Part shown: piece after piece, positions 11,221-14,208 of the stretch
Layout of the letters: the number at the start of each line of letters is the position of its first letter
Numbering within the stretch: the stretch's first letter is position 1
Source of the DNA: Nitrospirota bacterium
GTDB lineage: Bacteria; Nitrospirota; Thermodesulfovibrionia; UBA6902
Direction: 5' to 3'
NCBI GenBank assembly: GCA_016234115.1
Contig: JACRHD010000009.1
Location: 1-64,000 of the forward strand
DNA length: 64,000 nucleotides
Translations under genes and position numbers: made by a program
The notes under the pieces: model-generated
What the model was told of the DNA's origin: nothing
Database searches by the model: none
Seen by the model: the letters and a program-made list of their open reading frames with translations, nothing else

Positions 11221-11393
11221 TTGTGCTAAATACAAACACATTAGATGTATTTATGATACATGCCTTTCGGTAAAGCCTTTGTTTTTTCAATAAAGTAGCA
11301 TTGGTATCTAATTTGCTTATAATTCCATGATAAATTTTAAGAAACAATGCATGCCACTTGGAATTTCGTAATTTTTCAACTGGTTTTAAAAAA

Positions 11394-12287
11394 ATGAGAC
11401 TTCAAAACACAATAAAGAAAGAAATAGTCGTGACCGGGAAGGGCCTTCACACGGGAATGGTCATAAATATGAGGATTAATCCTGCTCCCAGGGACACGGG
11501 GGTCATTTTTATAAGGGTCGATAAAGGGAACGTCAGAATAAAGGCCGGCGTCAGCTCGGTTGTTGATACGACTTTTGCCACTACCATTGCTTCAAAAGGC
11601 ATTAAGGTCGGGACGGTCGAACACCTTCTCGCTGCGTTTTCAGGATTAAATATAGATAATGTATACGTCGAACTGGATGGGCCCGAGGTGCCGATAATGG
11701 ATGGGAGCGCGTTGCCGTTTGTCAATAAGATGATAGAGGCCGGCATAGCAAAACAGGCGAAGTCCATATCTTATATAAGGATACTCGAACCCGTTGTGGT
11801 TTCAAAGGGCCAGAGCCAGATCGCCGTTACGCCGTATGACGGCACAAGGATAACGTACCGTCTTTTCTATACGCATCCCGCCTTCGGAGAACAGAAACTG
11901 GCGTTGGACATTGCGGCCCTGAAATTTGCCCAGGAGGTTGCGCCTGCGCGGACTTTCGGGTTTCTGAGAGACGTTGAAATGCTGCGGTCCAGGGGGCTGG
12001 CGAAAGGCGGTTCACTGGAAAACGCCATCGTGCTTGGCGATAAAGAAGTTATCAACGGGAATAAATTAAGATTCAGGGATGAATTTGTCAGGCATAAAAT
12101 ACTGGACGCCGTCGGCGACATTTCATTAATAGGCTCTCCCATCCGGGGACATATAATCGCCAATAAGTCCGGTCATACGCTCCATATAGAACTCCTCAGA
12201 AAGATACTTTCGTGCCGTGATTCATGGGAGTATGTCTCCGAATCAGCCGTGCTTCCTTTTGCTTCGCAGATGGTGGCACAGGCTTAA
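11394..12287 (+). CDS. lpxC: UDP-3-O-acyl-N-acetylglucosamine deacetylase
   Basis: 297 residues when started at ATG 11394. This matches the family N-terminus (TIKKEIVVTGKGLHTG) better than the TTG at 11358. LpxC is the zinc enzyme for the first committed step of lipid A synthesis. Zinc and catalytic motifs are all present: VEHLLAA (about residues 75-81), the HKILDAVGD block (about 233-241) giving His and Asp ligands, and the late GHTLH catalytic His (about 261). VPIMDGSA and EVAPARTFGF are further LpxC signatures. No clear Shine-Dalgarno precedes either start. It is not fused to FabZ. It shows that the organism makes LPS, in agreement with the kds genes at 32-35 kb. Confidence 0.93.
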   Translation: MRLQNTIKKEIVVTGKGLHTGMVINMRINPAPRDTGVIFIRVDKGNVRIKAGVSSVVDTTFATTIASKGIKVGTVEHLLAAFSGLNIDNVYVELDGPEVPIMDGSALPFVNKMIEAGIAKQAKSISYIRILEPVVVSKGQSQIAVTPYDGTRITYRLFYTHPAFGEQKLALDIAALKFAQEVAPARTFGFLRDVEMLRSRGLAKGGSLENAIVLGDKEVINGNKLRFRDEFVRHKILDAVGDISLIGSPIRGHIIANKSGHTLHIELLRKILSCRDSWEYVSESAVLPFASQMVAQA

Positions 12288-12409: not shown

Positions 12410-12442
12410 AAGCTGTCCCATCACATAGTGACGGGACAGCTT
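12410..12442 (-). terminator. Rho-independent terminator of the Lys/Ala-rich small gene
   Basis: A 10-bp perfect stem AAGCTGTCCC/GGGACAGCTT with a 13-nt loop. Read on the minus strand it is followed by a run of eight T. It lies 26 bp behind the stop codon of the 29-codon gene. Confidence 0.85.
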
Positions 12443-12467
12443 AGCTCCTTAAGAGCGTTTAACTGCG

Positions 12468-12557
12468 TTATTTCTTTTTCTTGGCTGGAGCTTTCTTAGC
12501 TGGAGCTTTCTTTGTTGCCTTTTTCTTCGTTGCAGCGGCTTTCTTAGTGGCGGCCAT
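12468..12557 (-). CDS. 29-residue Lys/Ala/Pro-rich basic protein (histone H1-like tail)
   Basis: A small gene with all signs of being real: a GGGGGTG ribosome site about 7 nt before the ATG, 29 codons, TAA, then a strong terminator 26 bp later. The product begins MAATKKAAAT and is made only of Lys, Ala, Thr and Pro after Met (13 Lys), with two KKAPA units. Such sequences resemble the C-terminal tails of bacterial histone-H1-like proteins (Hc1, AlgP) and eukaryotic H1, which bind DNA without a fold. It could be a free nucleoid-binding microprotein, or bind RNA or polyphosphate. The exact function is unknown. The gene upstream (12599-13144) is on the same strand 41 bp away. Confidence 0.75.
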   Translation of the reverse strand: MAATKKAAATKKKATKKAPAKKAPAKKKK

Positions 12558-12598
12558 TCGTCTTCACCCCCTTTCCTCTCCCGTTTGCGGGAGTAAGT

Positions 12599-13144
12599 TC
12601 ATAATCTTCCCATAAGTAATATCTTCTTTGAAGCCAACAGCTTTTTGAGATTGCGGTCTCCGCTCTTTTTCATTGCCTTATAATCCGACTGGTTCATTAC
12701 CGTGTAACGGATTTCCCTCCCGAACCTTTTTTCGATGTCGCTTACAATCTTATCGATATTTCCCGAATCGGAAACTACAAACAGATCAAGACCGGGCAGG
12801 TTCGTATCGTCTACATAGGGTCCGTATATAAAAGCGGCTTTTGTGTCACATGCGTTCAGTATGGATTTGAGGGCGCCGGGAAGTCCGAGTGATTTGGCGA
12901 TCAGCCCTTTAAGTTCAGGGAAGAGAGAGGAGTTTCTGTTGACCCTGAAATATTTGAGATTGCCTTCTCTTTCACTCGTGACGAGTTCCATCTGCGCCAG
13001 TTTGTCGAGTTCCCTCTTTATCCCGGAGGCATTTTTGTTGGTCAGCCGGGCGATCTCTCTGACGTAAAACTTTTCCTCGGGATTGTTGAAAAGCAGAGAC
13101 ATGATGTCGGCCCTGATTCCCGATGTGAAGAGTTTTTCCAACAT
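12599..13144 (-). CDS. Winged-helix regulator with nucleotidyltransferase-like C-terminal domain
   Basis: 181 residues from the ATG at 13144. The longer frame up to 13228 would add a hydrophobic, AT-rich stretch that looks non-coding. Residues about 1-70 form an ArsR/MarR-like winged helix (RADIMSLLFNNPEEKFYVREIARLT with a KRELDKL recognition helix). The second half (KAAFIYGPYVDD ... LDLFVVSD ... IDKIVSDIEKRFG) resembles a degenerate Pol-beta nucleotidyltransferase fold: Gly-Ser is replaced by Gly-Pro and the catalytic DxD is only partly kept (GLDLF). Proteins of this make-up are common in archaea and Nitrospirota as uncharacterised regulators. No good ribosome site is seen. It may be co-transcribed with the Lys/Ala-rich small gene downstream. 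Confidence 0.7.
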   Translation of the reverse strand: MLEKLFTSGIRADIMSLLFNNPEEKFYVREIARLTNKNASGIKRELDKLAQMELVTSEREGNLKYFRVNRNSSLFPELKGLIAKSLGLPGALKSILNACDTKAAFIYGPYVDDTNLPGLDLFVVSDSGNIDKIVSDIEKRFGREIRYTVMNQSDYKAMKKSGDRNLKKLLASKKILLMGRL

Positions 13145-13554
13145 ATTGAAATATAATTTATACGATAAAAAAATATTTGTCAAGAAAAAAATACAAAAAA
13201 GAAACATAAAGATACTTTTTGTATACAAGTTAATTGTTGCGGAGAATAATTCTTTTGTTGACGATTATCAAACAAGCCAATTACGGTATCAGAAATGTTA
13301 ATGGAGGAAGACGGCTGCAAGTCTCCGGCTGCCGGTCTTCAATCCGTTGCCGGCGACTAATTGCGGTCTGTGCTGTGATATAATTTACCGATGAAGCAGG
13401 GACGCTTCACGGCCGGCTTTGGAAGAGGGCCGCGAGTGCGGAGAGCTTTTGAAGGGGCGTCTCGGTTATCATATAACCGGATACAGGATGCGGCAAGGTT
13501 GCTGCTTTGAGCGGGCGTTAAAATTCGGGAGGATTACGGGGGTAAAAGGGAATT
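13145..13554. promoter_or_regulatory. Divergent intergenic region with extended -10 promoter and structured leader
   Basis: This is the 410-bp gap between divergent regulator genes. An extended -10 box (TGATATAAT, 13376-13384) predicts a start near 13391 and a leader of about 165 nt before the DtxR-type gene. The leader holds several hairpins: GAAGC ... GCTTC (near 13394-13409), CGGCC ... GGCCG, and a perfect CGGTTAT-CAT-ATAACCG at about 13464-13480. The -35 is weak. I do not recognise a known riboswitch class. The left part is AT-rich and may hold the promoter of the minus-strand gene. Confidence 0.5.
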
Positions 13555-14208
13555 ATGGAAAACAACAAACTTCGCGACGAGATACTTGAGCTTGTGTGGT
13601 CCCTGAGGGAAAGAGGGACGAAAAGTCTGGGCGCGCTTATTGAAGGCGTCCGGGACAGCGAGGCTTCCGATGTTATAAGGAAGATGGAGAAGTCCGGGCT
13701 GGTTGTAATACGGAACGATGAAGTGGAATTGACTGAAAAAGGAGAAGCCCGATCGAGGGACCTGACGCGGCGTCACCGTCTTGCGGAGAGACTGTTTCAC
13801 GACGTCCTTGAAGTAGGCATGCAGGAAAGCGAGGAAACGGCGTGCGAGGTCGAGCATTTCCTGTCCCCTTCGGTCACCGACAGTGTGTGCTCTTTTTTGG
13901 GGCATCCTCCTACGTGTCCCCACGGCAAACCCATTCCCCGCGGTCAATGCTGCTCGAAATACAGGAATGAAGTCAAGCCGCTCGTCATGCAGTTAAAGGA
14001 ATTCGACGTGGGCGCGAGGGGGAGGATCGTGTTTATCGCACCTTCGGAGAATTCAAGGCTTGAGAGGCTTGCGTCCATGGGTATCGTTCCGGGAAGCGTT
14101 ATACGCCTGAAGCAGAAAAGACCTTCATTTGTGCTGGAGATCGACGAGACGACGCTTGCCATCGACGGCCTGATCGCGGAAGAGATTTATGTGAAGGAGA
14201 AAAGGTAG
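13555..14208 (+). CDS. DtxR/MntR-family metal-dependent repressor with FeoA (SH3-like) domain
   Basis: 217 residues. It probably senses Fe(II) or Mn(II) and represses uptake genes. Residues about 1-65 are the winged helix (EGVRDSEASDVIRKMEKSGLV, then VELTEKGEARSRDLTRRH). The following dimer and metal domain has the hallmark AERLFHDVL ... CEVEHFLSPSVTD ... CPHGKPIP, with Cys, Glu and His ligands of the DtxR type. Residues about 140-217 are a FeoA-like SH3 domain (LKEFDVGARGRIVFI ... LASMGIVPGSVI). An extra Cys pair (QCC) after CPHGKPIPRG is common in clostridial and Nitrospirota homologues. GGGGG about 8 nt upstream is a weak ribosome site. No feoB lies beside it, so targets are elsewhere. See the leader at 13391-13554. 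Confidence 0.85.
   Translation: MENNKLRDEILELVWSLRERGTKSLGALIEGVRDSEASDVIRKMEKSGLVVIRNDEVELTEKGEARSRDLTRRHRLAERLFHDVLEVGMQESEETACEVEHFLSPSVTDSVCSFLGHPPTCPHGKPIPRGQCCSKYRNEVKPLVMQLKEFDVGARGRIVFIAPSENSRLERLASMGIVPGSVIRLKQKRPSFVLEIDETTLAIDGLIAEEIYVKEKR

Follow-up and report, generated by a model that had tools for sequence, protein, structure and literature searches.

The 64,000-nucleotide stretch of Nitrospirota DNA analysed here (the window) carries, on its minus strand, a co-directional gene pair in which a winged-helix gene leads the operon and a lysine-rich microprotein gene of 29 codons comes last, with lpxC as the convergent neighbour (Table 1). The microprotein translates as MAATKKAAATKKKATKKAPAKKAPAKKKK, with Lys at 13 of 29 residues, which is exactly the Lys/Ala/Thr/Pro product that had first been described. 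A GGGGGTG motif (12571-12565, minus strand), contained in the longer GAAAGGGGGTGA, stands a few bases 5' of its ATG. At the other end, the terminator region folds at -31.4 kcal/mol (z -6.4), and none of 200 shuffles folded equally well. The ribosome site and the terminator assigned to this gene by the original prediction are, therefore, both in place; a promoter of its own is not, as the promoter of the unit precedes the upstream winged-helix gene.

Table 1. Features of the locus, with their positions in the window.
Feature	Position	Strand	Basis
lpxC, convergent neighbour marking the locus, outside the unit	11358..12287	(+)	conserved
Intrinsic terminator, 15-pair hairpin and T run	12410..12442	(-)	sequence, folding
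Lys-rich microprotein gene, 29 aa	12468..12557	(-)	translation; conserved ORF; poly-A avoidance
Near-fixed synonymous Ala codons	12530-12557	(-)	order-level relatives
Extended Shine-Dalgarno GAAAGGGGGTGA	12564..12575	(-)	sequence; GGNGGTG kept in relatives
Intercistronic hairpin CTCCCG-CAAA-CGGGAG, immediately 5' of the Shine-Dalgarno	12578..12593	(-)	per-locus stem test
Winged-helix and degenerate MNT-type nucleotidyltransferase-like protein, 181 aa, conserved ATG	12599..13144	(-)	homologues, model, PDC-M05A
Sigma-70-type promoter TTGACA-17-TAAATT, 10 nt 5' of the winged-helix ATG	13155..13183	(-)	same layout in family f1
Operator-like element GTWTACAAAAAGTATnTTTATGTT, 5' of the -35 box	13203..13235	(-)	conserved; absent without the regulator gene

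No other ORF in the window satisfies a K-rich, low-complexity rule, and none did so in five shuffled windows. A chance ORF can be set aside, given these shuffles, the linkage maintained over loci, and the avoidance of poly-A described below; on this evidence, the 29-codon ORF is a genuine small protein gene. An RNA family or a tRNA was also considered and rejected, with no Rfam match and no tRNA in the window. A DNA query over the 3.5-Mb draft genome returned no further copy, only the gene itself and chance pieces of 14-30 bases, and a check of the anti-Shine-Dalgarno through the 16S tail met with no 16S match in this draft.

The comparison set comprised 140 orthologous loci from 139 genomes, 86 genera, and 23 families, the paralogues L055, L227, and L228 being kept apart. 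The winged-helix protein is present in 49 of 61 relatives and, by profile, in 111 of 295 Nitrospirota genomes. Within the class Thermodesulfovibrionia, a Shine-Dalgarno-aware scan recovered a K-rich ORF 3' of the winged-helix gene at 117 of 119 loci, and separate inspection revealed one at both misses (L020, L034). All 21 loci from other Nitrospirota classes carry it too, the ORF of L207 ending after a few codons at the contig end. The small gene for a free basic peptide, predicted beside the winged-helix gene, is, thus, real and conserved in relatives, and the conservation of frame on which the prediction had staked itself holds at 28 of the first 30 loci, L024 and L037 ending at a contig edge. 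Judged by this distribution, the microprotein ORF is conserved over several Nitrospirota classes.

Length is variable and composition is not: the 115 complete ORFs of the class encode 13-127 aa (median 27), and the 138 pooled ORFs contain 47% K, 31% A, and 12% T, with 14 acidic residues among 4891. The ORF of L053 is atypical, having an acidic start and containing Cys. A GGNGGTG motif lies at most 22 nt from the chosen start at 118 of 138 loci, and a terminator-like signal follows the ORF at 92 of 134 by a crude rule. Each locus holds one to three of these K/A/T/P low-complexity genes. Tandem arrays of two or three copies, which differ from one another and have separate ribosome sites, occur at L221, L223, L225, L226, and L218, and likewise at the f9 loci L046, L146, L148, L154, and L157. 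Family f16 (L174, L175, L199, L201) has long relatives, some with scattered Cys, and one of its genomes (G324) contains two regulator copies, with a microprotein-type gene after each.

The neighbouring lpxC is convergent at 108 of the 140 loci and no locus where it was found has it on the same strand. At twelve lpxC loci (families f13 and f14, genus g40), the K-rich ORF is missing from that place, so that the microprotein appears dispensable in some lineages; the lpxC loci L252-L254 are incomplete. Five genomes (G006, G012, G021, G046, G056) yielded neither the microprotein ORF nor lpxC, and since lpxC is also missing there, incomplete assembly is probably the cause. A pattern search for stand-alone K-rich genes in regulator-less genomes gave matches (L229-L231, L234, L235) that held no such ORF. 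This pattern is insensitive and no proof of absence, as it matched 100 of the 140 known loci and missed the genes of genus g11, and a second K-rich pattern also failed on the window's own gene.

The Lys runs of the microprotein genes mix AAA and AAG in such a way that long A runs are avoided. Of 86 genes, one has a run of at least eight A, whereas permuting Lys codons within each gene over 500 rounds gave a mean of 24.6 such genes (minimum 14), and AAA-AAA pairs number 67, compared with 99.5 in these shuffles. Because of this avoidance, the ORF is, as far as codon choice can tell, translated. In the first 12 codons of family f1, 13 of 23 possible synonymous single variants are seen, versus 11 of 76 possible amino-acid-changing ones. 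Within the window's order (19 genera), Ala codons 2, 3, 7, 8, and 9 are nearly fixed as GCC, GCC, GCC, GCT, and GCA, respectively. At four-fold sites of the neighbouring gene, the share of the commonest codon averages 0.49 and reaches at least 0.9 at 1 of 30 sites. Optimised initiation and a hidden RNA element are candidate explanations for this synonymous fixation at the start of the microprotein gene.

The hairpin between the two genes was assessed with one locus per genus, leaving out HEPN loci and dropping five loci for gap length. Of the 69 genera, 58 have a stem of at least 5 pairs just 5' of the ribosome site (shuffle mean 27.1, maximum 39), and 32 have one of at least 7 pairs, compared with 4.0 in shuffles. 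The 58 stems show 47 different 5' arms (counted partly by length) at a kept position, which indicates compensatory change. RNAalifold detected no consensus hairpin on a MAFFT alignment, probably due to the misalignment of arms with varying loop length. In family f1, all 29 loci share a TTGACA box and a spacer of 16-18 bases, with the -10 box ending 10-12 nt before the winged-helix ATG, and none has a ribosome site 5' of this ATG; the winged-helix mRNA, therefore, looks nearly leaderless in this family. An alternative, longer TTG start would reach into the conserved promoter DNA. Within one unit, the microprotein has a very strong ribosome site, whereas the regulator has none (family f1). Beyond the promoter, positions 13555-14208 (plus strand) encode a metal regulator of the DtxR/MntR type that is fused to a FeoA domain and gives a weak HTH match at its N-terminus.

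The operator-like element has a single exact copy in the source genome. At two mismatches, 18 sites were counted versus 13 for a reversed-pattern control, and a wider operator regulon is, with a single exact site and a count near the control, unsupported. In genus g11 (G019, G028, G032), the regulator gene is gone and the K-rich ORF, still convergent to lpxC, sits behind TTGACA...TATAAA, both the -35 and the -10 being retained. All three genomes have lost the element (scores of -11.5, -22.2, and -10.5), while 26 of 29 regulator-bearing loci score from 24.6 to 45.1; of the others, L033 and L028 seem to be shifted by one base in register, and the element is lost from L034. Genome G051 also keeps a K-rich ORF convergent to lpxC and has no regulator match. 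The joint loss of element and regulator in g11 suggests that the winged-helix protein reads the upstream element, although L034, which keeps the regulator and has lost the element, is a counter-case. The microprotein being kept, along with the promoter core, where regulator and element are lost, these genomes further suggest that it is the working product of the operon.

The winged-helix protein of the window matches the PADLOC model PDC-M05A over residues 3-180 (1.3e-37) and has no Pfam nucleotidyltransferase (NTase) match at E up to 1; its unlinked paralogue L055 exceeds the cut-offs of PF18765 and PF01909. Catalysis in the MNT and HEPN families depends on the DxD and HEPN histidine motifs, respectively. 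In the window protein, the NTase motif GS...DxD has GP instead of GS and lacks the first Asp of DxD; DxD is retained by 2 of the 140 linked proteins and by all three unlinked paralogues. A HEPN gene intervenes between regulator and microproteins at 21 of 21 other-class loci and 2 of 119 class loci (family f6), overlapping the winged-helix gene in both groups, and none is found at the window locus. One other-class HEPN neighbour matches PDC-M05B (3.9e-17); this protein and one f6 HEPN give the PF05168 matches. The alignment shows that 22 of the 23 linked HEPNs lack the HEPN histidine, the exception being L226 with an RxxxxH, whereas 2 of the 3 paralogues have it. The AlphaFold model of the winged-helix protein has a mean pLDDT of 88, and its N-terminal half matches ArsR/SmtB-type repressors. 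Fold comparison returned mainly winged-helix repressors, with no nucleotidyltransferase among the matches listed, which leaves room for such a fold. The regulator would, from these motifs and neighbours, have evolved from the antitoxin of an MNT-HEPN pair, with catalysis lost. The unlinked winged-helix-MNT and HEPN pairs at L055, L227, and L228, found in the same genomes with an intact NTase motif, are likely active PDC-M05-type modules. PMC12988326 presents PDC-M05 as a nucleotidyltransferase and HEPN candidate with an unconfirmed antiviral role, and PMC3710099 provides background on the HEPN family.

The reading favoured here, with moderate confidence, is that of a chromosomal operon beside lpxC, in which an effector polycation would bind nucleic acid, with a domesticated pseudo-enzyme controlling its dose. 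The peptide would be a disordered and presumably abundant polycation, lying on the phosphates of a nucleic-acid backbone, with DNA as the likeliest target, in the manner of H1 and HC2/AlgP-type tails; as binding strength would follow charge, a wide length range could be tolerated. The winged-helix protein, on the element 5' of its own promoter, would set the peptide dose, and would now serve as a pseudo-enzyme sensor or scaffold, and the hairpin and strong ribosome site would lead to far more peptide than regulator. The composition of the peptide by itself makes nucleic-acid binding plausible. Nevertheless, this composition fits DNA and RNA alike, and the shortest peptides, of 13 aa, are short for a chromatin protein. 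HU/IHF was found in 32 of 32 genomes, so there is no nucleoid-protein gap to fill and the peptide would be no HU/IHF replacement. A broader view, that of phylum-old, free histone-tail-like microproteins forming, with a dead toxin-antitoxin regulator from a once antiphage-type module, a nucleoid (or RNA) charge rheostat, is put forward tentatively and falls short of probable.

There is a modest chance that RNA or the ribosome, and not DNA, is the peptide's target, the peptide being a small basic ribosome- or RNA-associated protein or an RNA chaperone. Peptides of 13 aa would suit the ribosome surface or RNA as well as DNA, and HU is already present in all 32 genomes, but no specific feature points to RNA, and variation in repeat number, with lengths of 13 to 127 aa, is at odds with a fixed docking site. 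It is also conceivable, albeit very improbable, that selection bears on the RNA, as a 3' regulatory element with an incidental ORF. This would account for the near-fixed synonymous sites at codons 2, 3, 7, 8, and 9 across 19 genera, unlike the neighbouring gene, and for the conserved intercistronic hairpin; it sits poorly with a composition that stays constant while length changes and with the avoidance of poly-A within Lys runs, and the synonymous fixation is an observation confined, like its analysis, to the window's order.

That the locus is a working PDC-M05-type toxin-antitoxin or defence module, in which the basic peptide serves as toxin, tag, or accessory, is unlikely. The matches to PDC-M05A (1.3e-37) and, for the other-class HEPN, PDC-M05B (3.9e-17) speak for it, as does the HEPN gene at all 21 other-class loci, whereas the near-complete loss of DxD from linked proteins (only 2 of 140 retain it, while all three unlinked paralogues do), the histidine lost from 22 of 23 linked HEPNs, and the HEPN gene missing from 117 of 119 class loci argue against it. 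Moreover, the position beside lpxC is fixed, unlike that of mobile defence genes, and the peptide persists without the regulator. Binding to polyphosphate or another polyanion store, an option raised by the original prediction, has lost ground and is the least probable of these readings. Lys-rich AlgP tails bind polyphosphate granules, according to PMC9239181, but a search limited to Ppk1 (Ppk2 being apart) found its core, PF02503, in none of 32 genomes with and without the microprotein gene, the window genome included, and in 7 of 14 control genomes; a polyphosphate role is unlikely because of this lack of Ppk1.

A literature search, thin on subscription journals, found no paper describing a lysine-rich microprotein beside lpxC. 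Since gene finders tend to skip low-complexity ORFs of 13-30 codons, annotation may be lacking a basic protein that is conserved throughout a bacterial class. To our knowledge, the microprotein would rank among the smallest H1-like proteins. The locus also shows, step by step, how a toxin-antitoxin pair may give up catalysis and turn into a housekeeping regulator. Since natural variants span 13 to 127 residues and may have or lack the regulator and HEPN, the effects of charge, length, and regulation can be tested directly.

Compared with known systems, the locus has the winged-helix-MNT gene of MNT-HEPN/PDC-M05 modules upstream of the microprotein, joined outside the class by an overlapping HEPN gene, but the catalytic residues are lost, HEPN is mostly gone in the class, and a basic microprotein has been added. 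At the window, a protein of the winged-helix and NTase type is present, and an active GS...DxD and a HEPN partner are not. The C-terminal KPAA tails of AlgP/PhaF (Pseudomonas) have a similar H1-tail-like composition, and AlgP tail peptides bind DNA, as stated in PMC9239181. These tails are, however, fused to a folded N-terminal domain, while the microprotein is free-standing, and Ppk1, taken as a genomic mark of an AlgP/PhaF-type polyP or PHA granule protein, is found in 0 of the 32 genomes (PF02503). The HC2/HctB and Burkholderia/Bordetella H1-like proteins (PF07382; NF038052, NF038053) resemble the microprotein in their low-complexity Lys/Ala repeats, in a length that varies with repeat number, and in having no folded domain. 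One of three long relatives tested passes the PF07382 cut-off of 40, a 107-aa protein scoring 62.9 bits; a 127-aa relative stays below it at 31.0, and relatives of 98 and 79 aa do not match. The window peptide has no PF07382 match at E up to 1, nor any other in Pfam or NCBIfam, and the NCBIfam matches of its relatives are all below cut-off; on these scores, it is not filed as a PF07382 member. Hc2 itself measures 165-237 aa, varies in length, and has relatives in other genera, as given in PMC2848022, compared with 13-127 aa in the class for the microprotein, which sits in a regulator operon. By analogy, the best reading is that the microprotein would work like HC2, BpH1, or AlgP tails.
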